NCBI GenBank assembly: GCA_947561395.2
Contig: OX387194.1
Location: 10,588,048-10,652,047, forward strand
DNA from: Buxus sempervirens
Lineage: Eukaryota > Streptophyta > Magnoliopsida > Buxales > Buxaceae
DNA: 64,000 bases
Reading direction: 5' to 3'
The stretch's first letter is position 1. Every line of letters begins with the position of its first letter. Below, one piece after another: positions 3,701 to 64,000 of the stretch. The translations under genes and the position numbers were made by a program. The notes below the pieces were generated by a model. The model searched no databases. It was not told the DNA's origin and worked only from the letters and a program-made list of their open reading frames with translations.

Positions 3701-4969
3701 GGAACCATTAGCTCACAGAAATAAGAATCTGCACTTCAAAAACAGGGAAAGCATACAACAACATGAATGAACTACCGCACAATGTTTTTAAATTAAAGGC
3801 AATAATTCATATGGTCATCAAAATGTCCCGCAAATATCAGGCCATCTAGTCATAGATGATCAAAACATCCAGCCTAAAGATAATATGTCAGAAAACAAAT
3901 TTTCTGTTTTTTTTCTCCCCATCTTTAAGATCCTAAACAAGCAAAGGGATGTTTGACCAATCTAAAAGCAAACAAAATTTCAAGTTGTTTTAACGATTTT
4001 GAAAACAGGAGAAGAGAAAAACATGCTAGGAAACAATTAGTCAAAATCAGTTACAAGTTTTACAAATCAATAAAGATACATTTAGTAGGTCTAATGATCA
4101 TGATATAAAAGTTGTTTGAAACGATCATATCAGTGGCGGTGAACGTGGTCTTAATAGCACTGGTGGCGGCAGTAGTGCTCATAGAGGCAGTGGTTTGGTG
4201 GTGGTGATGGCAGGGTAAAAATCGTGCACATGCAAGCTGTAACACTGTATATAGTTCAATATGCTGAGCCAAAGCTACAACTCTAGCAAGCTAAAATTAT
4301 TCTAATAACAAGTTAATGAAATGGCACCCCTACAAATAAAGGGGAAAAGAATTTAGCCAGGAAAAATATAGGATCTATAAGAAAGGATGTGAGAGCCAAT
4401 CAACAAAAAAGATGAGAAATTGAAGTCCTACAAACACTTTAAACAGAGAAAATGGAGAAGTGACCAGCTGTGAAACATGGGAAAAATCACCGGGATGATT
4501 CCCCCTCCGTCAACACACGGGGCTCAACGTAAAAATGGGAGAGTCGCCACCATTCAGATTTTTGGAGGTGTGAATGGACACCAAAAGATTCAAAAATAAG
4601 CAAAAAGTGCTAAAAGGCAAGTTCTAGAGTAAAAATAACTCTACTTGAAAATCAAATCCAGAGATGGGTAAAGGGATTGGATTATGAACGGGGAAAGGTG
4701 TTAGGCACCCCCATTCACCCACACAAGGTGGTTGCCAAGTATTGTTCATGCAAAAACACTACAAAATTTCGATGAATTAGAGGCAGATTTGTAATGGCGG
4801 TTCAAAAAAACCGCTAGTAATAATTTATACAGGGGCGCTCCTGACCCGAGCACCCCAAAAAAACCCACGGTGGTTAGATGTTAATTCTCATCAACGGCAT
4901 TTATTTTCTAAGCGCCATAACTCATTTTTAGTGGCTGCCGCTAATAGACACTCATTGAACCCGTGCGCC

Positions 4970-4989
4970 CCCCCCCCCCCCCCCCCCCT
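4970..4989. repeat. C homopolymer tract
   Basis: About 20 consecutive C residues within the 5'-UTR-like leader of the inner CACTA cargo. Length may be unreliable in an assembly. Confidence 0.85.
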
Positions 4990-7099
4990 CCTGCTTCTTC
5001 CTCCACCCTCCCAAATTCCCGATCAGGCATTTCTTCTCTCGATTGAAGCCCTAGCCATTTCTTCTCTCCCAATCGGCTTTGCATCGGCATTTTTCGACTC
5101 GGCGCAGGGGAAATCCTAATTGGATTCTTTTTTCACAGAAAGAGAAACAAAGAGGAAACAGACTCGTGGAGCCTTGGTGCCTGTGATGCGTGGAAGTGGT
5201 GACAGAAAAGGGGGAGATCGTGTTGGAAGCTCTTGAAATGGCGGATTGAGTCTCTAGGAAACCCTAACTCGTCCATAAACCGCACTATTGTCGTCTTTAC
5301 TTCTTTCGGATCCGATCGGTCTAGTATCTGAGGTATGATCGCTTTTATGCTGTGCTAATAGATTTATTGATTTGTTGAAATTCTGGTGGTTGATAGAAAC
5401 GGTCCCGAGCTTGTCGCTGGCTTGCCTTAGCCGCTCTCCCTGCATTTCCATTCTCGTGCGACGAGAGGAGCTTGAATTTATAATATATAACCCTAATTCC
5501 TTTATCTTCTCTGTTCCAACCAGATAGAACCTTGAAGGAGTCTTTGGTTGCTCAAATATCAGATTGCTATCAAGACCGTGAGTCTCCTTGAATCCACTTT
5601 TGTTCAATTGAAAGCGACATTGTGAGGTATTTCCCTGTTTGTATCGTGATTTCAGGAAATATATCGTGATTTTTGTCCATTTTATTATGCTTTCGATCCA
5701 GCCTTTTTTTTTTGTAATTTTCTAAGTTATTGGAGGATCTTGTTGATGTTTTTCTGTGTTTTGCCATAGAGATTGGCTTAACATCGTTTTTATTCGTTCT
5801 CTGTTCTGTATGTTGCAATTAGTTTTTCATGTAGAGGATTTAGAAAGGCGTGTTTTGGTAATGATTCTAATAAGGGGAAAGAGACAAAAAGAAAAAGGAT
5901 TTATAGGCTTGGGAAATGAGCTCGATCAAAGCTTCTATTTTTGTAGGTACCATATCCCCTCACCGATTTCAACTCCATAGTTGAACTAACTTGGACAATA
6001 ATTGAAACTTGTAATTTTTACGGAATTTGTCAAATGTTTTTTTCACTCTTTCTACTTCATCTCCATGACTCTCCTGTTCATAGACTACACATCTAGTAGA
6101 GGCTGAGAGGTTTTCCACAAGATTTGTACTATCTCCAATGGCTGAATATAGCACCTCTGAAATATATACTGTTTAAAACAACTGTCTTCATTTTTACTTA
6201 ATAGAGATATGCAGCCCATCAAATCATGAGCTCATTCTCTGCTGCACCATCTATGCTACCTTCCTCCTTTACCTTCTTTCTTGCATACTGGGCCTACTAT
6301 ATATACACTCATGAGAGGTATCTCTGACTCTATTATAAGGAAGAAAAATCCACACACACACACACACACAATTATTTGGCTACTCAAGATCAATCTGAAC
6401 TTAGCACACCAATTTAAATTCCACATCACTGATTCAAATTCCATATCATCATTATCCTGTGCAACTGACTCATGCAACTGATGGGATCAAACTATTAATA
6501 ATCTCTCGTGAGCTGTATTGGCATTTTTACCGTCTGATTTTATTTAACTTTATTTTTTGCCTTTTTATGTAATGGTATATAACAACATGATTATTCAGAA
6601 TGTCATTAAACAGAATTGTGGAGATTAAGCTCATCTTAAGTATTGTTTAGATATCCTTTTGTACACTCACCAGTCCCAACAAATTCTGTCATGCTCAAAC
6701 CAAGCTGCTATAACTTGGATAGGAGATCACATCCTCAATATACTGATGCAGAAAGATACACATCTGGTACAGAGAAAGACCCTTTCAGCCCTTTTGTTTT
6801 GTGATAAATTTTCTGGGGTGATAAATAGATGTAGCAAATACTAGCAATATGAATTCAGAATAATACCTTGTTAAGGCTCAAATATCAAAACCCAACCATT
6901 TTTTGCAAGCTACATCAAGCGAATCTAAGAAGGAACTACAGAATTTTTTTGCAAACTTGGCTAACTTTTGGAACAATAGAAATTTTAGGAACTACATAAA
7001 TATCTTCATGCACATTTGGGAACAATAGAATTTCTGCACTTGAATTAGATTCACGGGTTATTGCTTATTAAATTGTTCTTTTTTGATTGCTGCGGAAGG

Positions 7100-7428
7100 T
7101 TATCTGTATAGACAATGGTTGTGATGTAAGTCCTTGTTTTGTTATAGCATTTCTAATTACTTATTTGATTTGTAGAAATTATAGGGCTGATGTTAGCTTT
7201 TGCACTACAAATGCTTGTAAAAGGAATGCATCTAATGATACTGAAAATATGCTCTTTATTATCTGAATGCTGTCACTTCACTATTGGTATTTACTGTTGC
7301 TGGCTCCTTGTTTTGCAGATATTCTGAATGATTCATGGTCCCCAGCCATGACCGTTAGTTCAATCTGTATCAGCATTCTTTCCATGTTATCAAGCTCAAA
7401 ACTAGAACAACTCCAGATGTTATTGGGT
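7100..7428 (+). pseudogene. Captured fragment of a ubiquitin-conjugating enzyme E2 (UBC16/17/18 type)
   Basis: An exon-like segment starts at 7319 directly after a TTTTGCAG acceptor and encodes DILNDSWSPAMTVSSICIS followed by ILSMLSSS. This matches the region of plant UBC15-18 (E2 W-like) enzymes that follows the active-site cysteine loop. About 200 bp upstream, near 7100-7122, a degenerate TATAGACAATGG segment ending at a GTAAGTC donor resembles the preceding exon that normally encodes IYSNGHICL. The catalytic Cys codon is not preserved. After SSS the frame is lost. The fragment has no complete UBC fold and cannot be functional. It lies wholly inside the inner CACTA element, so capture by the transposon is the likely origin. 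Confidence 0.7.
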
Positions 7429-7878
7429 AAATCCTGCTCTTCTTTTTACTCCTTTTGGTTGAAATTTTCTGGGGTTTAATGCATTCTAATCAAAACTACC
7501 ACAGACAAACCTGCTTTGGGAATCCTATGATCTCTCTGTAATAGTCTCATCTGAAGTGAATAATAAAGGTGTTTCAATAATATGTACTTTCCTGGCTAAA
7601 TTTCTTTGGGCAGGAATTGATTAATCAATCTAGGCTACTCCTGTCCTAACTTTCAGAAATACATCAGAGGCTGAGGTATCTTTTTGAAGCCTTCTGTAGT
7701 TCAAGTGTCCTTTTTTTATTTCTCCTTAGCAGGAAACTTTTAGAAAACAGCAACTTATGTCAATAGAGTGTACTAGTCAGGTAAATTTTATCCCTACTTT
7801 TGTGTGGATATTGTGCCAAATGGTTTTCTTATTCATTCATAGTTAAAGTGATTTACAAAATTAAATTTTTCTTTGCAG

Positions 7879-8490
7879 TTCCAGAATGGGATGCATTTAC
7901 CCATAGTAATGGGAACCTCACTGAACTTGTACCAAAGGCTTTAGAAGTTTATCAATCTAGTTTGCCACATGAACATAATTTTTTATTAACATCTACAGGT
8001 TTATTGGCCCATCCGCCACAACCTGCTCAATGATCAATTTAATTGGGTAGATACAGTTCTTATCATTTATTCAGCCATATAATAGATGGCATTCCCGTAT
8101 TTATAATTTTTCCTATTCTAATGGCTGACTACAGTTTACTTTCTAGAGACATGCAGTGCTCTGCAGATGCCTCCCTTCCAAGCTATTCCAGTTTACTTGG
8201 TACAAGCCAACAAGGAAATGATGTAGTGCAAGAAGGTGGTCCTATGAATGAGTTAGACAGAAATGCAAGAGCTCTTATTTGTTTTTCCTACCACCAGTCT
8301 TATGTCTTCTCCTTCCACATGTTTGAAAGTTGCAGCAACTGATTTGCTTTTAATATTGGAAAAGCTCTTAGTGAATTTGTTATTTGCAACAAAGAAGGGA
8401 GCAAGTTTAGAAGGAAGATTTCCATATACGGTTAGAAAACCTGAGTTGATCTTACATAGGCTTTTGCAACATCTATGGTTTCAGGTTTAC
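7879..8490 (+). pseudogene. Captured exon-like fragments of an unrecognised gene
   Basis: After a TTCTTTGCAG acceptor, 7879-8033 encodes a protein-like stretch beginning VPEWDAFTHSNGNLTELVPK and ending at a stop. Two further coding-like stretches follow, about 8130-8340 (with SLPSYSSLLGTSQQG) and about 8290-8490 (with LLLILEKLLVNLLFATKKG), in different frames, as expected for exons with decay or unspliced introns. I do not recognise the protein. Position inside the CACTA element suggests it was captured together with, or next to, the E2 fragment. Confidence 0.45.
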
Positions 8491-10722
8491 CTTATATCAA
8501 GTTCATTTTATTAAAACCTAATCCATTTTTCCCTGTTATGTTCATCTGTAATTTTGTGGCAATTTCTATGCTAAGGCCCTTTTAAAAACTTTGTTTGGAT
8601 TTTTACCTCTTATAATGATCTCTGTGTTTGGACTTTTCATTTAAGTTGTGTTTGCTAGTCTGTTTATATTCTGATACAAAATGTCTGATTGTCATAGAGG
8701 AGGTAATGATATTAATTGAGAATTTTCTTTGTAGATATGGTTTGAATTGTCATTAGATTGGTTACTTTCAAGACCTTGTTATGGGTTATCGTGAGTGTGC
8801 TTGAATCCATTGAGGAATTTTTTTGCATTTTTGTGGGGATTTTATCTGGAGGAGTCATTATTCATTTCTAGCTATTTGCTTACTTTACCATGTGTTGGGC
8901 ATTTGACAAAATTTTTCCATGCTTTCAGGAAGTGTTGCTTATTAAAACCCAGAGATGCTCAATGTAGGCCTTGGGGATTACTCCTTTCTCAAGGCAAGGG
9001 ATGGTAGTGGGGCGGGTTAGACGGATAACACACCCCAACTTGATGTCTAGTGTTTGGTATTAGGTTAGGGGCAAATTTGGGTCTAGTCCAACCCACCCGA
9101 CCCCTTTCATCATATGTTTAAGTTATAACTTTTTTATATGTTTTATATAAATAAATCCTTTTCATATGTTTAGCATTTTGGTACCTCGAACCCATCCTGT
9201 TGCCGTTCATGCTTTCTCCAAAAGTTTTGGTGATGATGGGACGTTTCATGGGAAAGGAGCACCACAACGGTCAAAAAAAAAAAATTTTAAATACACAATT
9301 ACCGGCGGTTGGAAACCGCCGGTAATAGTCTAACACAGCAATGACAAACAGCGGCGATTGGCGCCACTAAATGTATTTTTTATTACCGGAGCTTGTAAAA
9401 ACGCCGTTAAAAGCGCTGCAGATACAATCTGCGACGCTCGATTTAATGGCAGTTGGGCAAACGCCAATAATATAATTACCGGCGGTTTTTTATTTTTACC
9501 GGCGGTTTTAAAAACCTGTTTTTTAGTAGTGAAAGTAAGAAAGCTTGCTAAAATCATTAAAAAACATTGAAAAAGATTTAAACAAATGTGTGATATCTTC
9601 ACATGAGAAATCCAAATGGATTCCAGATCCTCTTTTATGTCAATATCACTTCTGGAATATCACCAAAAGATGGAAATCAAAGCAAAAGTTACACAAAACC
9701 AAGTTGAGTTAAATCCGGGAAATTCGGTAAAAGCAAGAACCATTTGTCTTGAAATCATTCAAATCCAATTTTAAATTGAATCAAACCAAATCCATTTGAA
9801 AGATTATGGTAAATAAGAGTCTCATGCAAAATTTCAAGTAAATCCGGTTGAAATCCTAGGAGTTATGCCTCCTTTAAAGTTGCTACTGGAGATAATTAAA
9901 AGTGGCAAGTGGGCAACTTCGGAAAATCATTTAGAAACATCGGCTCCATATAAATTCATGAAATTTAGTGTGAGTGAAGTCTGTATGGCCATCTTTCAGA
10001 TGAAACTAGCCTCATATAAAAATTCATTCGGATGTGCCCTGGGTGGTCTCCCGAACAGGCCCCGAAGATCACAAATTTACCCAGAAAAGTGCTGTTGAGC
10101 AGTTCTGAGTAAATCTGTTACCAACAGCACAAATGGAGTCAAAAAATTATGAAACCAATTGGATTTGAAAATAGACTCATAAAGGAGTTCCCAGAAACAA
10201 AAATCACTCGAATCGGACTTAAAACGAACACATGGTGCTCAGTCGAAGTGACAAGTTATGTATTCAGATCAGAACTGACCTATCAACTTCGACAGAGAGG
10301 TGTCAAAAATCTGCTTGATAGAAATTAATGAAATTTGGTAGGCATAAACTAGACAGCCTCACCTTTCCCATGGTTCTGGAATCACTCCAAAATTCATCCG
10401 GACGATGAAGTTATAAGTGTCCGAAGTCGAGGTACAGTTGCTGTCAAGTTAAGCCATTTTTTATGAAAACCAACTCCAAACAGTGATAAAGTGTGTGTGA
10501 TCCGTGCAAGATTAATTAAAATCCTTTAAAAAACATTTGAAAACATTCCAGAATTGATTGAGGCTATTTATTTCAGATTTATCACGATAAACGCAATAAA
10601 TCCAAAATATGAGCCTATCCCGCCAAAATCATATGCTATGTATGTGTAGGTGTAAAAACCATTCCAATAACGTAGCAAAGATAGTATGCATTCATATCGC
10701 TCAAAATAAGGTTCTAAAACAA

Positions 10723-11105
10723 CCTAGGGTTCCGTTCCATTATCGTTTCCCTTAGTTCTCTCTCCCCGTTAAATACGGTTTTTCAAGATAATCTTGGGGT
10801 ACTTTGAATATGAAAGGGTTTCCATAGAATCACAAGGCTTATAGCATGCATTTAGATCAATAAAAAAGGGATCTAGAACACCCTAGGGTTCCGTTCCATT
10901 ATCGTTTCCCTTAGTTCTCTCTCCCCGTTAAACACGGTTCTTCAAGATAATCTTGGGGTACTTTGAATATGGAACGGTCTTCACAGATTCAGAAGGCTTA
11001 TTCAAAAGAGGTTCTAGCACTAGGATCAATCCCCAGTCTCGTTTCTCCTAGATCCCGCCTTCACGTTTTACGGCTAGGGGGAGTCTTGAGATACTTTGAT
11101 CCGGG
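10723..11105 (-). repeat. Repeated R/U5-type units of solo LTR copy C
   Basis: Two near-identical segments start with CCTAGGGTTCCGTTCC at 10723 and 10882 (159-bp spacing). A third related unit near 11022-11105 contains ACGTTTTACGGCTAG. Equivalent repeated units with the same motif occur in LTR copies B and D, downstream of the TATA box in the LTR's own orientation. Confidence 0.75.
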
Positions 11106-11506
11106 AAAGGGTTTCATACACACATCAAGGCCTTATTCTACAGAAAGGTAGAAGAAGAGATCTAGATCTAGAAATGTAAAAACAAAAATTAAAAAGAGGT
11201 TTGAAGCTTACCTGGGTTCTAGAAGCACTTCCGCAGCAGTTTCCTTCTTCTCTCGGAGCTTTTCTTGGCAAAAGTTCTTGGCAAGAATTGTTGGCAAGAG
11301 AGTTAATGGTCATTTGCTTAAGGAGGAGCCTCCTATTTATAGGCAAAGGCTAGGGTTAGGGTTGGTGAGATGGTAGACACAACATAATGTCCATGGCCCA
11401 CCAACCTTAACCCTAAGGTTATTTCCGAGATTTCCACTCATTTAATGAGGGACATGATGGTAAAAGGTGAAATCTCTCGGAAAACCCTAATTTTGAGCAA
11501 AACTTA

Positions 11507-11650
11507 TATATCCGACATATCAGGTCGGATACACGAGTGCCTTAATGTATCCGGCATATGATGCCGGACACACTAGAGCTTGCTTGTATCCGGCAACTTA
11601 TGTCGAATACGAAGAGATATACTTGTATCCGGCCTGAGTTGTCGGATACA
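11507..11650 (-). repeat. U3 palindrome array of LTR copy C (4 x 39 bp)
   Basis: Four 27-bp imperfect palindromes start at 11507, 11546, 11585 and 11624, exactly 39 bp apart. Each has the form TGTATCCGG-N9-CCGGATACA with a few substitutions, separated by 12-bp linkers. The array ends about 166 bp upstream of the LTR TATA box in minus orientation. Copy D has the same unit and the same spacing. Confidence 0.9.
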
Positions 11651-11989
11651 AGGAAAAACTTACTTTTTCACATTTTTGTGCTGGCTTCAAAAGAGATAAT
11701 GATTTTTGGTAATTATTGATCATTTTTACTGTGCAATTTGGGGTGTCTACACCAGCGTACCTTAAGCTTCACCTTCTCCATTTCTCCTTGCCCTCAAAAG
11801 TGAATAGCAAATATGGACAGATATCTTTAGAAGCTGCAAAATGGGACCCGGAAAAAAAAAGGAAGGGGAAAATAGATTCCCCTTATAATAGGGAAAATTT
11901 GTGAGGTGGTTCGTGCTTCGGGAATGCATAGCAGGAGTATCTTGTAATAGGGAAAATTTTTAAAAGAATAACATAAATAAAATCCTGTG

Positions 11990-20262: not shown

Positions 20263-20745
20263 AAAAATATAAAAACCCATAAAAAGAGGATTATGGTTTT
20301 TTGGTAGATTTTAGTATCTGCTTTTAAAATCAAACTTTCAAAAACCCTACCAAACAACACTTTCGATCCCAGCTTACAATGGTTGAGTTGAAACCAGAAA
20401 GTCTTATAGCAAACTCCACATCCATGTATGCGCTCTTGAAACAAATTAGAAATAATTGCTAATAAGAAATTGTAATTAATAAAATAAATTGTAATTAATA
20501 AAATAAATTTATTTTATTACAATAAGAACTTAGCCATTTTGTATAAATTATAGCTAATCACTAACATTTTAAAATTAGTAACAAATAAAGATATTATTAC
20601 TACTTTATGCTTACATATAAAGTATATGTTATTGTAGACACCCCAAATTGCACTATAACATGAGAGAACACTAAAATGAATTTTTTAATGATTTGTTTGA
20701 GCTTTGACAAGTGTCAAAAACTCAAAAGTATTCAAAAAAGGGTGC

Positions 20746-21000
20746 TTACCACACATTTCATGCGGTTTTTGGCCATTTGGTTTCGACCACACTGTGTATG
20801 CGGTTGCAACCATACACAGTGTGGTTTTGGTCCATGCCTCGCATATGCATGCAAGTGGACTGCCAGGCTGTTCGGCCACACTGGCAGCCATCATTAGTGT
20901 GCAACTGAATTTGGACCGCCTTGTATGTGCGGTTTGTGGAGATTTGTGCTACAACCACAAACAGAGTGCAATTTGTCAAACCGCACTATGTATGCGGTTT
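20746..21000 (+). repeat. U3 palindrome set of LTR copy A (irregular)
   Basis: Four related 23-bp units resembling AAACCGCACTATGTATGCGG plus TTT occur at 20746, 20784, 20913 and 20978. The unit at 20784 is extended into a 38-bp inverted repeat with 14-bp perfect arms, CCACACTGTGTATG (20787-20800) and its complement (20811-20824). Further inverted repeats (GTTTGTGG/CCACAAAC, CTGCCAG/CTGGCAG) lie between. The set ends about 200 bp upstream of the TATA box, the same relative place as the arrays in copies B, C and D, but its sequence is unrelated to theirs. Confidence 0.75.
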
Positions 21001-21200
21001 CTGTCAATTGCGTCATTTGCGCAAAGACTCGAGATCTGAGCCTTATTTACGCATCTTACCTCTCTCTGGGAGACCTGCTTTCCCTAGTTTGCCCTCCGAA
21101 ACTTGTAGAATTACTCCAATTCATGCATTTAATGTGAATTGGAATAATCTAGAAGCATTTATTGGTCTACCTTTGGGTCTTTGATACCCTTGGTTGTGCT

Positions 21201-21209
21201 TATAAATAA
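21201..21209 (+). promoter_or_regulatory. TATA box of LTR copy A
   Basis: TATAAATAA, in the same place relative to the downstream CCTCCTC...CAAATGGC segment as the TATAAATAG boxes of LTR copies B, C and D. Confidence 0.65.
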
Positions 21210-23044
21210 AGGGGTCCTCCTCTTGCAAATGGCTGAGAATTTGAAGCTTGGATGCTCTAGAAGAAAAAGTGAACCTCTGCCCGATTGCTGTCTTAAGACT
21301 CTCAAGCTACTAAGGCAAGGTTCTAGCTATTCTTCTAGTCTTTCCATTACATTTCTGCACTCTCACCTTCTCCCTTTCTGTAGCATAAGGCCATGAGTGT
21401 GTGTGCAAACCCAAACCTCTTCTAAAGTACCTAAGAATCATCTCTAGCTGTAAAACGTGAAGAGAAAACTTGGGGAAACAGATGTTGGAATGGATCTTCT
21501 AGGATAGAACCTTGCTTGAATGATATGCATTAATCTTATGCTCATGAATGCTTTGGTGTGATTTGAATTTAGATCTGGATGAAATGCAAGGATCCATGCT
21601 CTCTATATCAATGGATCCAGATTTTCTTCTACAAATTGTTTTCCACCATGAACAAACACTTTTCACCTCTTTTTGTCAAGAATAGGCTAGATCTAGGATT
21701 CTCCATGTTCAATATGGAAAATCTGAGGTCCAGGGCCTTAAAATGAATTCCTAGGACTTCATGTGAGTTTTCTAGTGATTTCAAATCATTTTTAGTCAAA
21801 TCCATTGCACACATGCACTGATTTTGCTTCAATTCACTCAGATTTTTAAAACCTGGATAGCACCTGTTGCCTGTCTTAAAACATTCATATTTTCATCATC
21901 CGGATGAATTTTTGAGTGATTCTAAAGACATGTAATAGGTGTATGTGTCTAGTTATTGCTTGCAAAATTTCAGCAATTTCTATGGAGCCATTTTTTGACA
22001 CCATCTGATCCAAGTCGGCAGGTTAGTTCAGATCAAAATGCTGAACTTGCTACTTAGATCAAGAACCATTTGCTCATTTTAATTTGGATTCGAATGATTT
22101 TTGTCTCCATATTTTCCTTTGTGAGTCTATTTTCAAATCCAACAGGTTTCAAGAGTTTTCTCCTTAATTTGTGTCTTGTGTGTTTGATTGACTCAGAGCT
22201 ACTCTATAGCAAAATTCTAAGTTAATCTGTGATCCTCTAGGCATGTTCGAGAGGTCATACAAGGCACATATGGATGAAGTTTCGTGTGAGGCCTCTTTCA
22301 TTTGAAATATGGCACCACATACTTCATTCATGCAAGTTTTTAGCAATTTATATAGAGCCGATCTCCCTGGGAAGAGTTCCAAAGTAAGGCACTCGTCACT
22401 TTTTCTGGTTTTCAACAGCAGATTTGCTTGAGTATTTCTCTCTTGCTTTTGATCGGATTAATCTGAATTTTATACTGAGTATTCTACTTCATATCAACTT
22501 TTTATTGGCTTTGGTTTCGTTGAATTTGAATTCAAATCGAAGGTCTTATGGTTGATCAAAGTTTTCAAGCTATTATAGCCTCATTGTTTTGGATTTTTCT
22601 AGATTTGTTTTAAAATTGATTTTTATCAATCTTTACCTTGATTTCACTTAATCATGAAGTCCTAGAGGTGATAGATCCAAAGAGAGAGTCCAGGTCTTAT
22701 TGGACTACTCATATGGAGAAATCACATATGTATTTGCGTTTCTTTAAGTCTTTTTGATTGTTTTGATTAGCAAGTACCTTTTCTAGCATAAACAACATAT
22801 GGCAACCGTCTTATACGGATGAGTGGGGGTGTCTAACACCTTCCCTTGCTCATAACCAAATCCCCTTACCTGATCTCTGGATTTAACCCGAAATAAAGTT
22901 GCTTTAAACTCTATTTTGCTTTATTACGATCCCTTTGGTGTCCATTCACACCTTAAAATTGAATGGTGGCAACTCCGAACTTTTGTAAATCCCGTGTGAT
23001 GATGAGGAAGTCATCTAAGTGATTTTTCCATGTCTCACAGTTAT

Positions 23045-25018: not shown

Positions 25019-26831
25019 TGTGAGACATGGGAAATAATCAAATCTGGATCCAATGACCTCCTCTAATCATCACACGGGATTAAATAAAACAAAGAGTCGC
25101 CACCATTCAATTTAGGTGTGAATGGACACCAAAATATTAAATAAGTATAAAAGGCAATTTTTAGGGTAAAAATAACCCTCCTTTAAAAACAACCAGAGAT
25201 GGGTAAGGGGATTAGGTTATGAACAGGGGAAGGTGTTAGGCACCCCTATTCATCCACACAAGGTGGTTGCCAGGCATTGTTCATGTTTTTCAAAGATAAA
25301 AGGCTTGCTATAAAATTCATGAAAAATCACAAAAAAGACAAAAATATATGGTTTTTTCATATGAATAGTCTGATTGATCCAGAACTTTCAAATATGATCA
25401 TACCATTCCTAGGGTTTCATGATCAAAACGAATTAAGATAAAATCAAATAAAATCAATTTAAAGTGAAAAATCCAAAAATCTGGCTTCAAGTTAAATTCT
25501 AGAAATCTAGAAAAATATGATTTTTATAAAATATTTCAAAATTGAACTTGAATAGTCCAGGACATAGGTAGAGCCTATATTTCACATTAAATCAAAAAAT
25601 CAAAACCAAAAATACCCACGTTGATGAAAAACACCAAAAAGGGAGAACTTAGACCGTAGGGTTTTCTCTAAATAATGAAAAACAATTTAAAAACCACATC
25701 ATGAAACCCTAGAATTTACTTTCAGGCTTCTGGATCCAGATCTATCATATTGATCATGATAAATCCAAGATCTTAGCCTAAAATCACAAAAATCACGAAA
25801 ACAGTGCTGTAGGTGCAAAAGTGGCAAAAATCCAAATTTTATAAAAAAGTGGGGATCTCATGCTATAAACATCATGGATTCATGTATTCATTCAGATTCA
25901 TCATAAAAAGCATTAAAACATGATCAAGATATTCAAAATAGCCACATCTCACAGATTTGAGCACATGGGGGTCTACCCTACGGATCCACCTGTTCTCTTT
26001 TCCCCTAGCTCTCTCTTCACGTTTTACGGCTAGAGAGGATTCTTGAGGTATTTGGAGATAGGTTTGGTTAGACAATCACAATCACAGGCTTTATTCTATA
26101 AAAAAGAGAAAAACAGATATGGGGTTCTATTTTAGGGATCCACCTGTTCTCTTTTCCCCTAGCTCTCTCTTCACGTTTTACGGCTAGAGAGACTCTTGAG
26201 GTACTTAGAGACAAGTTTAGGAATACTAGATACAAAAGATGTCCTTATTCTACAGCAATAGAGATGATCCTATTACATCTAGAATTGAAGACAGAAAATA
26301 AAAGGGAAAAGGGACTTACCTGGATTGAGCAGGCAGAGCAGCAGGGGTTCCTCTTCTTCTCTTGGAGCTTCTTAGACTTCAAATTTTCGTGGCCTTTTGC
26401 TTGAGGAAAGGCCCTCTATTTATAGGCAAACACAGGGGTATGGTTGGTCCAAGGTTTGGCAAGATAGAGTTTCAGTTTGAGTTAAACACAAGATAATGCC
26501 CATCCTTTATCCATAAGGATATTTCGCACGAATAAAATATATAATTCACTCATTTAAAGGGATATTAGACTAAAGATAAGGCTCAGAAATCGAGAGAAGA
26601 ATAAAACTCGCACGAGTCTAGAATGCCCGTAAACGATTTACGGTCCCACGATGTCCGTATATGTATTACGGGCGCTGCGTGCCCATATTCAAAATTCGGG
26701 CGCGCTTAGCCCGTAGATACAATACGGTCCAGGCTCAAATTATCCATTTTCATACATTTTTGGCCTGTTTTAAATCCCAATTAATATTTTCAATTATTTT
26801 CTCATTTTTAGTGCAATTTGGGGTGTCTACA
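25019..26831 (-). mobile_element. Solo LTR, copy B (1.8 kb), inserted in the LINE
   Basis: In minus orientation it starts TGTAGACACCCC at 26831 and ends CCCATGTCTCACA at 25019. The flanking duplication is CTTGA (25014-25018) versus CCTGA (26832-26836), one mismatch. Removing the LTR and one duplication copy restores the LINE zf-RVT frame from SPL into ERCVLCSKEQESHFH. The TATA box (minus) is at 26417-26424. A 155-bp-spaced repeat with ACGTTTTACGGCTAG occurs at about 25982 and 26137. It is shorter than copies A and C. Confidence 0.88.
26627..26727 (-). repeat. U3 palindrome array of LTR copy B (4 x 28 bp)
   Basis: Four 17-bp palindromes start at 26627, 26655, 26683 and 26711, exactly 28 bp apart. 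They have the form CCGTA-N7-TACGG (the first CCGTAAA-CGA-TTTACGG; the third is decayed) with 11-bp linkers. Another short palindrome, ACTCGCACGAGT, lies next to the array at 26606-26617. The array lies about 200 bp upstream of the LTR TATA box. Its sequence is unrelated to the TGTATCCGG units of copies C and D. Confidence 0.85.
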
Positions 26832-50643: not shown

Positions 50644-50721
50644 TTGCGCATTTAAGATATATTCAAATTAAATTCTCTTTTAGGAAGACGAGATTTTCGT
50701 CACAATTTAGGAAACCATATC

Positions 50722-50730
50722 TATAAAAAT
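50722..50730 (+). promoter_or_regulatory. TATA box of flotillin copy 1
   Basis: TATAAAAAT about 160 bp before the ATG. The position is conserved as TATAAATA at 57847 in copy 2. Confidence 0.6.
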
Positions 50731-50882
50731 ACGCCTGTGATCTTCAATGCTTTGAGATATAAATGAGAATTTGCCTTTTATTGTGATCTGTGAGACGAGA
50801 CTCCATTACCAAACCTTGATACTCTAATCCCTTCTTAGGGCTCTACTGCATCGATCGATCTCTCTCCGTGCTTCGATCAGCC

Positions 50883-52574
50883 ATGTATAGGGTGGCGAGC
50901 CCATCGGAGTATCTGGTGATCACCGGAGTCGGGATACGCGACATAAAGCTTTCAAAGAAGGCATGGGTTCTCCCAGGACAGTCTTGCACCATCTTCGACG
51001 TCTCTCCGGTGAACTACGCCTTCGAAGTCCAGGCAATGAGCGCCGAAAAGCTCCCTTTCATCCTCCCAGCAGTCTTCACCATCGGTCCTCGCCTCGACGA
51101 CGAGCCTAGCCTCCTCAAATACGCCAAGCTTATCTCCCCCCATGATAAGCTCTGTCACCACGTCAAAGAGCTCGTTCAGGGCATTATCGAGGGGGAGACT
51201 CGGGTGCTCGCGGCCTCCATGACCATGGAAGAGATCTTCCGGGGCACCAAAGAGTTCAAACAGGAAGTTTTCGAGAAGGTGCAGCTCAAGCTCAATCAAT
51301 TCGGGCTTCTAATCTATAACGCTAACGTGAAGCAACTCGTCGATGTACCTGGTCACGAGTACTTCTCGTATCTCGGCCAGAAAACCCAGATGGAGGCGGC
51401 GAATCAGGCTAAGGTCGATGTTGCCGAGGCGAAGATGAAGGGAGAGATCGGATCGAAGCTCCGGGACGGACAGACGTTACAGAACGCGGCGAAGATTGAT
51501 GCGGAGACGAAGATCATATCGACGCAGAGGGAAGGAGAGGGGAGGAAGGAGGAGATTAAGGTGAAGACGCTGGTGAAGATATTTGAGAATCAAAGAGAGG
51601 CGGATGTGGCTGAAGCCAATTCCGAGTTGGCGAAGAAGAAGGCCGGGTGGACTCAGGAGGCGCAGGTGGCTGAAGTGGAAGCCGCAAAAGCTGTGGCGCT
51701 TCGAGAAGCCGAGTTGCAGAGGGAAGTCGAGAGGATGAACGCGTTAACTCAGACGGAGAAGCTCAAGGCCGAGTTTCTAAGCAAAGCCAGCGTCGAGTAC
51801 GAAACCAAGGTACGCAAGCGTAATAGCTTATCCTCTCCGCAGTCATCGACCAGTTCTTGGTTTGCAAATTTTATGGAGCCGAGTTTTATTTAACTCACAA
51901 CCGAGTTATAATTTTTTTATTGATATAATTAAGTTATATCTGAGTCACTACCGAGTTACACACTGACTCAGTGAGTTTTCCGACTCACTAACCAAGTTTT
52001 AATTAGATTTTTGGCTTAAACGTCTTATTCATTAATTATCTTGTAAAAAAAGGTTCAAGAGGCAAACTGGGAGCTCTATAAGAAACAGAAGGCAGCAGAA
52101 GCAATTCTGTTCGAGAAAGAGAAGGAAGCTGAAGCACAGAAGGCGATTGCGGAAGCGGGGTTCTATGCCAGGCAACAAGCGGCTGACGGAGAACTATATG
52201 CGAAAGAGAAAGAGGCGGAGGGAATGGTGGCGCTGGCACAAGCTCAAGGTGTCTATCTGAGTACCCTTTTGAAGGCCTTGGGTGGTAACTATGGTGCACT
52301 GAGAGATTACTTGATGATCAATGGAGGAATGTTTCAGGAGATTGCTAAGATTAATGCCGAGGCGGTTCGAGGATTGAATCCGAAGATAAGCATTTGGACT
52401 AATGGGAATGGTGGGGAGGTGGTGGATGGAATGGGAAGTGGCAGTGGTAATGCCATGAAGGAGGTGGCGGGGGTGTACCGGATGTTGCCGCCGCTGTTTA
52501 AGACTGTAGAAGAGCAGACTGGGATGCTGCCACCACTATGGATGGGAAAATTAGCAAACTCAACCACTGATTGA
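50883..52574 (+). CDS. FLOT: Flotillin-like protein, copy 1
   Basis: Exons 50883-51809 and 52053-52574 (GT-AG intron of 243 bp) encode 482 aa, the normal plant flotillin size. The ATG at 50883 ([18 protein letters not shown]) matches the family start; a GTG in frame 15 bp upstream is not a plant start. The N-terminal SPFH/PHB domain includes [33 protein letters not shown] and [40 protein letters not shown] and [20 protein letters not shown] follow, then a coiled-coil rich in Ala-Glu repeats ([18 protein letters not shown]). The C-terminus ends [16 protein letters not shown]. Flotillins scaffold sterol-rich plasma-membrane nanodomains and endocytosis. It sits 3.4 kb after the duplication's CACTA remnant and just right of the long-TIR element, so its distal promoter differs from copy 2. 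Confidence 0.93.
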
Positions 52575-52692
52575 GATGTTTTCCATTTTCCTCTTTTGGG
52601 GATGAATTTGTGATTAACTTTGTTTTTGTTGCTTTGCTTTCAGGCTTTCAGTGAATCATGTTCAAGAAAGGTTGTTTTGTTCTTACCCTTTA

Positions 52693-57599: not shown

Positions 57600-57846
57600 A
57601 CAATTATGCTTTCCATGTAAGCTGCCACGTATGAATTCTGAGTCTCACCGTATCGCTTCCAAGCGTACAGTGCTTCGCACACAAACCAACCTCCATCTCA
57701 TACGGTGTAAGTCTACGCAGTTGCCAATGAAATTCGGCATTACTCCCCGCAAGCTTAACAGACCTACAAAGTCTTTTAAGATATATTCAAATTAAAATTT
57801 CTCTCTTAGCAATACGAGATTTTCGTCGCAATTAGGAAACCATATC

Positions 57847-57854
57847 TATAAATA
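57847..57854 (+). promoter_or_regulatory. TATA box of flotillin copy 2
   Basis: TATAAATA about 150 bp upstream of the ATG, in a segment nearly identical to copy 1. Confidence 0.6.
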
Positions 57855-58005
57855 CGCCTGTGATCTTCAATGCTTTGAGATATAAATTAGAATTTACCTT
57901 TTATTGTGATCTGTGAGACGAGACTCCATTACCAAACCTTGATACTCTAATCCCTTCTTAGGGCTCTACTGCTTCGATCAATCTCTCTCCGTGCTTCGAT
58001 CAGCC

Positions 58006-59692
58006 ATGTATAGGGTGGCGAGCCCATCGGAGTATCTGGTGATAACCGGAGTCGGGATACCCGACATAAAGCTTTCAAAGAAGGCATGGGTTCTCCCAGG
58101 ACAGTCTTGCACCATCTTCGACGTCTCTCCGGTGAACTACACCTTCGAAGTCCAGGCGATGAGCGCCGAAAAGCTCCCTTTCATCCTCCCGGCCGTCTTC
58201 ACCATCGGTCCTCGCCTCGACGACGAGCCTAGCCTCCTCAAATACGCCAAGCTTATCTCCCCCCATGATAAGCTCTCTCACCACGTCAAAGAGCTCGTTC
58301 AGGGCATTATCGAGGGGGAGACTCGGGTGCTTGCGGCATCCATGACCATGGAAGAGATCTTCCGGGGCACCAAAGAGTTCAAACAGGAAGTTTTCGGGAA
58401 GGTGCAGCTCGAGCTCAATCAATTCGGGCTTCTAATCTATAACGCTAACGTGAAGCAACTCGTCGATGTACCTGGTCACGAGTACTTCTCGTATCTCGGC
58501 CAGAAAACCCAGATGGAGGCGGCGAATCAGGCTAAGGTCGATGTTGCCGAGGCGAAGATGAAGGGAGAGATCGGATCGAAGCTCCGGGCCGGACAGACGT
58601 TACAGAACGCGGCGAAGATTGATGCGGAGACGAAGATCATATCGACGCAGAGGGAAGGAGAGGGGAGGAAGGAGGAGATTAAGGTGAAGACGCTGGTGAA
58701 GATATTTGAGAATCAAAGAGAGGCGGATGTGGCTGAAGCCAATTCCGAGTTGGCGAAGAAGAAGGCCGGGTGGACTCAGGAGGCGCAGGTGGCTGAAGTG
58801 GAAGCTGCCAAAGCGGTGGCGCTTCGAGAGTCCGAGTTGCAGAGGGAAGTCGAGAGGATGAACGCGTTAACTCAGACGGAGAAGCTCAAGGCGGAGTTTC
58901 TAAGCAAAGCCAGCGTCGAGTACGAAACCAAGGTACGCAAGCGTAATAGCTTATCGTATCCGTAGTCATCGACCGGTTGTTGATTTGAAAATTTGTGGAG
59001 CCGAGTTTTGTTTAACTCACAACCGAGTTATAATTTTTTTTATTGATATAATTATCTCTGAGTCACTACCGGGTTACACACTGACTCAGTGAGTTTTCCG
59101 ACTCACTAACCAAGTTTTAATTAGATTTTTGGCTTAAATGTCTTATTCATTAATTATCTTGTGAAAAAAGGTTCAAGAGGCAAACTGGGAGCTCTATAAG
59201 AAACAGAAGGCAGCAGAAGCAATTCTGTTCGAAAAAGAGAAGGAAGCTGAAGCACAGAAGGTGATTGCGGAAGCGGGGTTCTATGCCAGGCAACAAGCGG
59301 CTGATGGAGAACTATATGCGAAAAAGAAAGAGGCGGAGGGAATGGTGGCGCTGGCACAAGCTCAAGGTGTCTATCTGAGTACCCTTTTGAAGGCCTTGGG
59401 TGGTAACTATGGTGCACTGAGAGATTACTTGATGATCAATGGAGGAATGTTTCAGGAGATTGCTAAGATTAATGCTGATGCGGTTCGAGGATTGAATCCG
59501 AAGATAAGCATTTGGACTAACGGGAATGATGGGGAGGTGGTGGATGGGATGGGTAGTGGCAGTGGCAATGCCATGAAGGAGGTGGCCGGGGTGTACCGGA
59601 TGTTGCCGCCGCTGTTTAAGACTGTAGAAGAGCAGACTGGGATGCTGCCACCACCATGGATGGGAAAATTAGCAGACTCAAGCACTGATTGA
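58006..59692 (+). CDS. FLOT: Flotillin-like protein, copy 2
   Basis: Exons 58006-58932 and 59171-59692 give 482 aa, with the same exon lengths and intron position as copy 1. By eye 14 residues differ between the two proteins (about 97% identity), for example Arg/Pro in GVGI(R/P)D, Asp/Ala in KLR(D/A)GQ, and the C-terminal LANSTTD versus LADSSTD. The SPFH domain and Ala-Glu-rich coiled coil are intact, and no stop or frameshift is present. The promoter keeps the conserved ACACGTGG and TATA elements without the long-TIR insertion found in copy 1, so this may be the copy with ancestral regulation; that is inference. Confidence 0.93.
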
Positions 59693-59807
59693 GATGTTTT
59701 CCATTTTCCTCTTTTGGGGATGAATTTGTGATTAAGTTTGTTTTTGTTGCTTTGCTTTCATGCTTCCAGTGAATCAGGTTCAAGATAGGTTGTTTTGTTC
59801 TTACCCC

Positions 59808-62901: not shown

Positions 62902-62990
62902 TGTAGACACCCCAAATTTCACAAACAATCATAAAAAATCATCATCTCCTTGAAAGCCAGCACAAAAATTGGAGAAAATGAAATTTTACC

Positions 62991-63134
62991 TGTATCCGGC
63001 AACTCAGGCCGGATACAAGTAGTTTCCTTTGTATCCGGTCTCAAGTGCTGGATACAAGGAGCCTTTAGTGTATCCGGTATCGTATACCGGATACATTAAA
63101 GCCCTAGTGTATCCGGCCTGATATTCCGGATACA
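62991..63134 (+). repeat. U3 palindrome array of LTR copy D (4 x 39 bp)
   Basis: Four 27-bp palindromes start at 62991, 63030, 63069 and 63108, exactly 39 bp apart with 12-bp linkers. Each is TGTATCCGG-N9-CCGGATACA (one arm substitution in unit 2). Unit 3 pairs over 12 bp per arm. The array ends 156 bp before the TATA box. It is the best-preserved of the four arrays. Confidence 0.95.
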
Positions 63135-63289
63135 TTAGTTTTTGCTCAAAATTAGGGTTTTCCGAGAGAAATCACTTTTTACCATCATGTCCCTCATTAA
63201 ATGAGGGGAAATCTCGGAAACAGCCCTAGGGTTAAGGTTGGAGGGTTCTAGACATTAAGTTGTATCTACCAACAACCCTAGCATTTGCC

Positions 63290-63298
63290 TATAAATAG
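63290..63298 (+). promoter_or_regulatory. TATA box of LTR copy D
   Basis: TATAAATAG, identical to the box in copies B and C (minus strand), with the same downstream GGAGG...CCTCAAGCAAATGG context. Confidence 0.65.
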
Positions 63299-64000
63299 GA
63301 GGCCCCTCCTCAAGCAAATGGCCAAGTTTTTGGAGATTGAAGAGCTCTGAGTGAAGAAGGGAACCGCTGCCGGATTGCTTCCAAAACCCCAGGTAAGCTT
63401 CAACCCTCCTTTATTTTCTGTATTTAATTTCTTAGATCTAGATCTCTTCTTTTACCTTTATGTAGAATAAAGCCTTGTTTGTGTATGGAAATCCTTCCCC
63501 GGCTCAAAGTATCTCGAGACTCCCCCTAGCCGTAAAACGTGGAGGCGGGATCTAGGAGAAACGAGACTGGGGATTGACCCTAGTATTAGAACCCATCTTG
63601 TATAAGCCTTTTGATTGAATGCAAACCGTTTCATATTCAAAGTACCCTTGATTATCTTGAAGAACCGTGTTTAACGGGGAGAGAGAACAAAGGGAAACGA
63701 TAATGGAACGGAACCCTAGGCTATTCTAGAACCTTATTTTGTTGAATCTATATGCATTCTATATTGTTGTATTGGTATTGTATGGATTTTCACTCTTGCA
63801 CACATATTGCACTATTTTGGTGGGATAGGCTCACATTTGGGGATTTATTACATTCATTGTGATAAATCTCTAATAAATGGCCTCAATCAATTCTGGAATG
63901 TTTGAAAATGAATTTTAAAGCTTTTGTATTTATCATGCACGAATTGCACATACTTTGTTACATTTTGTATTGGTTTCACTCGAAATAGGGTTTACTTGAC

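Follow-up and report, generated by a model that had tools for sequence, protein, structure and literature searches.

Four LTRs and their arrays

The window analysed in our study is the whole 64-kb stretch of Buxus sempervirens DNA, in which the LTR start TGTAGACACCCC has exactly four exact occurrences, at 11751 (-, LTR A), 20633 (+, LTR B), 26831 (-, LTR C) and 62902 (+, LTR D). LTR D (62902..64000, +) opens with this start and runs past the window edge. It carries an array of four 27-bp palindromic units (array D, 62991..63134, +), which begin at 62991, 63030, 63069 and 63108 with spacings of 39, 39 and 39 bp, as an earlier note on this DNA had described. The 17-bp cores of these units lie at 62996, 63035, 63074 and 63113, and the right arm of the second unit is imperfect (GCTGGATACA). 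The array is located approximately 155-300 bp upstream of the TATA box TATAAATA (63290..63297, +).

The other three copies are complete solo LTRs, each set between short flanking duplications. LTR A (4469..11751, -), flanked by GCTGG/GCTGG, is split by a CACTA-like insert at ~4757-9531 and holds an array in 39-bp steps (11512..11645, -), with cores at 11629-11645, 11590-11606, 11551-11567 and 11512-11528. LTR B (20633..23039, +), flanked by GTTAT/GTTAT, has an irregular array of the type CCRCx-N7-xGCGG (20749..20997, +), with cores at 20749, 20787, 20916 and 20981. LTR C (25019..26831, -) sits inside LINE-like sequence between flanks with one mismatch (TCAGG/TCAAG), and its array (26627..26727, -) follows exact 28-bp steps, with cores at 26711-26727, 26683-26699, 26655-26671 and 26627-26643. 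The proposal that sister LTRs hold an array in the same U3 slot was upheld for all three, although, with the copies lettered in window order, the partner of D is A (82 % identity over 879 bp, both of the 39-bp type) and not C, which is of the 28-bp type, while B is irregular. The LTR start, the TATA region and the R/U5 sequence are common to all four copies, as had also been claimed; the copies share one LTR frame and do not belong to unrelated LTR families.

Several further features were seen in the window. The CACTA-like element within LTR A (4757-9531) has the ends CACTACTAAAAA...TTTGTAGTG. The R/U5 block around TCTAGCCGTAAAACGTGAAG is tandemly duplicated in LTR A (162 bp, 88 %; 10681-11001) and in LTR C (101 bp, 89 %; 25965-26218), apparently through separate events, and the conserved motif of the R region showed weak folding (z -2.1, -1.2). 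A near-identical 2-kb duplication (50651-52688 and 57775-59806; 96.5 %) contains open frames, which we take to be flotillin-like.

A core common to the array types

The arrays of the sister LTRs had been called 'unrelated' and 'wholly different', a description that our data contradict. Each of the four U3 regions in the window contains four units that match CCG-N11-CGG with at most one mismatch, and 11 of these 16 units match exactly. This core was first spotted by eye and was then tested free of that choice, using the 64 trinucleotides with their reverse complements at gaps of 0-30 bases (31 spacings) across the four LTRs. Of the 64 x 31 combinations, CCG-N11-CGG alone gave every LTR two or more exact sites; AAA-N7-TTT equalled its 11 exact sites summed over the four, but had only one in LTR C. 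In 60 dinucleotide shuffles no combination gave at least two sites in all four LTRs, and CCG-N11-CGG itself averaged 0.12 sites (maximum 1). Of the 13 exact CCG-N11-CGG sites in the 64-kb window, 11 fall within the four U3 regions. The array types of the four LTRs are therefore related via one core. They grade into each other to this extent, and the 28-bp and irregular types further overlap in CCG[T/C]A-N7-T[A/G]CGG, yet the types are discrete.

Occurrence in the genome and in a sample of LTRs

The host genome (676 Mb, 247 contigs) contains 13,023 exact TGTAGACACCCC LTR starts, compared to 38 for the reversed pattern, and 14,723 exact TGTATCCGG-N9-CCGGATACA palindromes, compared to none for the reversed pattern. 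The bare core CCG-N11-CGG showed a modest, 1.3-fold excess (163,369 versus 126,325 for the reversed control). A scan of viral contigs for two LTR motifs returned no matches.

A sample was assembled from 60 loci around the first of 100 listed starts among the 13,023, on contig C1 (2.2-7.7 Mb), together with the window. Its 69 starts, window included, yielded 65 LTR rows once four short or identical ones had been dropped; rows were trimmed at the next LTR start where present, and 20 shuffles served as control. At least three units in step were required to type 31 rows as 39-bp and 18 as 28-bp, whereas no shuffle contained such a series for either step. The other 16 rows were typed by hand as irregular (10 rows), degenerate 39-like (L036, L043, L052 and L054, the last judged from one unit) or without any unit (L040+301 and L053-290). 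Most family members in the sample have arrays: at least two exact core sites were present in 55/65 rows (shuffles: mean 0.05, maximum 1), and the 65 U3 rows together hold 197 exact core sites against 2.6 in shuffles. A lone site with one mismatch is weak evidence by comparison, as it occurred in 63/65 rows and in 36 of the shuffled ones. Row counts are non-independent throughout, because the rows are related by descent.

Spacing was close to fixed in both regular types, with the reservation that the requirement for three units in step makes the interval and unit figures lean to regularity. Among the 39-bp rows the interval was exactly 39 in 89/93 cases and four units were present in 27/31 rows; among the 28-bp rows the interval was 28 in 46/54 cases and 27 in the other 8/54, with four units in 16/18 rows. 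Discrete unit families, with arms homogeneous within a copy, were thereby recovered much as the earlier note had anticipated. The irregular type has steps of 38, 23 and ~68 and no regular spacing. The 39-bp step exceeds the 28-bp step by about one helical turn, but the irregular steps misfit strict helical phasing and no claim is made for it.

Two variants of the unit series were also observed. One row, L045, has one exact additional 28-bp unit. In L026 (start 1078) and L027, which are the two LTRs of one element, the spacer of unit 1 reads as the reverse complement of its counterpart in sister LTRs (ATTGAGTAT versus ATACTCAAT), which marks an inversion between the palindrome arms.

The host element and a second LTR-like repeat

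The LTR starts of L023 and L024 lie 20 kb apart, and the two LTRs differ by 0.25 % over 1.2 kb. A 6-kb stretch between them (L069) encodes RVT_1, RT_RNaseH, RVT_3, H2C2 and rve in this order, and the position of RT and RNase H before integrase is the Ty3/gypsy order. Within Ty3/gypsy, a second RNase H is the mark of the Tat (Ogre-like) lineage. By its domain order (RT, RNase H, second RNase H, integrase), the element with such LTRs would be classed as Tat-like Ty3/gypsy. Differences between the LTRs of one element were 0.08-0.5 % in four of five pairs, the exception being L028/L029 at 11 %, which indicates that the arrays sit in recently moving copies.

The same CCGTA-N7-TACGG unit was found in a second repeat. 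Two regions of contig C1, L070 (38800-41300) and L071 (46300-48300), are 67 % alike, and their similarity to LTRs B, C and D is confined to the array of C. In L071, CCGTA-N7-TACGG units at 28-bp steps lie upstream of a TATAAATA; in both regions such units at 28-bp steps also occur ~800-900 bp downstream of TATAAATA. We take the LTR-like L070 and L071 for probable LTRs of another family.

These observations bear on whether the sites are read by a protein of the element itself, one that counters silencing and co-evolves with its sites, as VANC does in VANDAL transposons. VANC targets are described as short motifs in arrays, with the motif of an array differing as a whole from one related element to the next (PMC5735166), and the Buxus subfamilies likewise differ in their motif as a set. 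However, VANDALs are DNA transposons, and their element-encoded protein binds a nine-base motif that has a single orientation and is not palindromic. Within the 6-kb stretch of L069 only pol domains were found, its 200-aa open frame giving no Pfam hit, and the CCGTA-N7-TACGG unit in the other LTR-like repeat argues for a shared host factor. We therefore consider an element-encoded reader quite improbable.

Conservation and the type of constraint

In the 39-bp type (27 distinct rows x 4 units), pairwise diversity in the arms TAT-CCG / CGG-ATA was 0.00-0.07, whereas the N7 spacer reached 0.34 and the linkers 0.37; the arms are nearly invariant although they contain CpG. The unit of the 28-bp type (16 rows) is G.CCGNA-N7-TNCGG.C, with a diversity of 0.07 in the core and 0.40-0.44 in linkers and spacer. 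Unit selection at no more than one core mismatch depresses core diversity in these figures, whereas TAT, ATA and the outer G and C played no part in selection. Core mismatches were mainly C to T or G to A (14/16 and 9/13), the pattern that deamination would leave in decaying silent copies.

The contrast between arms and intervening sequence also weighs on a neutral origin, in which a chance palindrome without function would have been tandemly duplicated and homogenized. Units have indeed been duplicated and inverted, as the extra unit of L045 and the reversed spacer of L026/L027 show. Duplication predicts, however, that spacers and linkers should be as alike as the arms, and the opposite was seen in 43 rows: when units are pooled, diversity in spacers and linkers comes close to random (0.56-0.59), unlike that in the arms. 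The likeness of the arms is therefore not a mere result of unit duplication. In addition, the three types have their core in common. Neutral duplication is disfavoured as sole cause by the near-random spacers and linkers beside conserved arms, and we regard a functionless origin as very improbable.

A further possibility is that the units are selected as hairpins in RNA or single strands. U3 stands at the 3' end of the element RNA, where stem-loops could have a function in the life cycle of that RNA or be a source for small-RNA silencing, as has been reported for the palindromes of maize Sireviruses; small RNAs are described as concentrated on these palindromes, with CACCGGACNNNGTCCGGTG as a hotspot in maize (PMC10760457, PMC5311732). 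The evidence for such a role, also raised in the earlier note, was mixed. Array D folds far beyond shuffles (z -12.6 sense, -10.6 antisense) and array C moderately so (z -2.9, -3.8), but the folded part of array B was non-significant (z -1.5). Both inner pairs of the units covary in the 39-bp type, being complementary in 68/82 and 60/82 cases compared to 49.7 and 31.1 in shuffles; units 3 and 4 often have either C..G or T..A and seldom an intermediate. In our reading, a preference that is symmetric shifted jointly in several units, though a pairing constraint or an origin as perfect hairpins could also account for the covariation.

Mismatches, by contrast, had no preference for G-U. At the fourth base of the half-site, C..A and T..G combinations numbered 8 versus 7 in the 28-bp type and 10 versus 7 in the irregular type, and the two sides varied independently in both (Fisher p = 1, with 12 A..A 28-bp units and 1 G..G irregular unit excluded). 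In the 39-bp type, A..C outnumbered G..T by 12 to 1, the opposite of what a sense-RNA stem would lead one to expect. The independence of the fourth base fits half-sites that would be read separately in DNA, rather than a G-U-tolerant RNA stem, and a stem by itself requires no fixed CCG-N11-CGG. Selection for a sense-RNA hairpin is disfavoured by the mismatches, and a hairpin role in general appears unlikely to us.

Of the three roles proposed in the earlier note, sites for a dimeric transcription factor provide the best fit. From the units, their core, spacing and usual number, the invariance of the arms, the mosaic LTRs described below and the same unit in another LTR-like repeat, we infer with moderate confidence that the arrays are clustered, dyad-symmetric sites to which a dimer of a DNA-binding protein, probably one of the host's transcription factors, would bind and so activate the LTR promoter. 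Each unit would present a pair of CGG-type half-sites whose distance is constant (CCG-N11-CGG), and the few bases flanking each core would add a subfamily-specific preference. This reading draws on the core common to all types, the invariant arms, the near-fixed spacing, the independent half-sites, the position upstream of the TATA box, the CCGTA-N7-TACGG units of L070 and L071 and the presence of arrays in recently moving copies. The inner-pair covariation of the 39-bp type, the merely 1.3-fold genome-wide excess of the core and the unequal spacing of the irregular type argue against it. LOB-domain (LBD) factors are a candidate for the binder, offered as a lead only.

Relation to known systems

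The closest precedent is the palindromic motifs of Sireviruses. PMC2829016 describes the LTRs of these Ty1/copia elements as containing many palindromic repeated motif (RM) boxes with a CGG/CCG core; their signature is CGG...CCG at shorter, varied distances, with at least three and usually eight or more boxes per LTR, and the motif is termed Sirevirus-specific among the Ty1/copia elements compared. In both systems, palindromic boxes with a CGG/CCG core cluster upstream of a conserved TATA, and the boxes vary by element while the core is kept. The core differs in orientation and distance, as the invariant part in Buxus is CCG...CGG at 11 bases, and the host element, unlike a Sirevirus, has the Ty3/gypsy order of L069 (RT and RNase H before integrase) and is Tat-like. 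The maize Sirevirus palindromes likewise form clusters within the cis-regulatory portion of the LTR, vary in sequence and have strong predicted folding, whereas the Buxus arrays are strict in period and number.

Other systems share single aspects with the arrays. In the Tnt1 superfamily, subfamilies differ in U3 while the rest of the element is common, which has been termed modular evolution (PMC1838419), but the part of that paper used here mentions no array of palindromes with a conserved core. Del LTRs have CpG islands on their 5' side (PMC4029996); these are defined by composition, and palindromes go unmentioned in the portion of the report used. No report of palindrome arrays in Tat/Ogre elements was found in the literature surveyed, which covered few subscription papers. 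The arrays are real and functional-looking, apparently new for the Tat-like lineage (they were new to us) and unusually orderly, but their kind has already been described in Sireviruses.

Palindrome arrays thus extend beyond the Ty1/copia Sireviruses. How large plant retrotransposons choose and change their host activators is poorly known, and this one family, with more than 13,000 exact LTR starts, offers a natural series of one LTR frame, three promoter-site types, mosaics and one core. What protein recognizes palindromes in LTRs was asked of Sireviruses in 2010, and the series makes this question directly testable.

Evolution of the array types

A tree of R-U5 sequences was built with a quick method and a midpoint root for 63 rows, leaving out two rows without TATAAATA. 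Three rows (L016+301, L040+301 and L044+301) bear the R-U5 of a second, downstream LTR, and long branches make the placement of L015+301 with L026+301, and of L029 and L067, unsure. A single clade with support 100 unites the 28-bp rows (16 rows), and another, also with support 100, holds nine of the ten irregular rows, the tenth being L044+301 with its downstream R-U5. The 39-bp type is paraphyletic, with L009 sister to the 28-bp clade and L036 and L037 basal on the other side. Under the midpoint root, the probable ancestral state is the 39-bp array, from which the 28-bp and irregular types would have arisen by two separate changes. The suggestion that a modular array is replaced as a set held up, as the outer letters of the units change together while the place and number of units (usually four) persist.

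Mosaic LTRs reveal that U3 modules recombine. The first 540 bases of L044+301 have 87-97 % identity to a long-U3 39-bp LTR, and past approximately base 600 the row has 77-92 % identity to irregular-type LTRs; irregular units begin at 584, which places the mosaic break next to the array. Similarly, L064 matches L025 at 92-98 % identity as far as base 600 and L018 at 96-100 % past base 800. If the arrays are sites for a dimeric host activator, their types may have been switched as a set as lineages adapted to another factor or to an altered preference, with U3 modules traded between subfamilies through recombination. A broader proposal, which we hold to be doubtful, is that LTR retrotransposon families unrelated to one another could share CCG-N11-CGG as the docking grammar of a single class of dimeric plant regulator. 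The flanks and the 28- or 39-bp step would then specify the subfamily, like an address that recombination in U3 can exchange, and sister families might in this way answer to different paralogues of the regulator or evade each other's silencing.

A long-U3 module of ~550 bp was also observed before the array in L009, L025, L044, L059 and L064. Its copies are 84-94 % alike over aligned stretches, and arrays of the 39-bp as well as the irregular type are joined to it.
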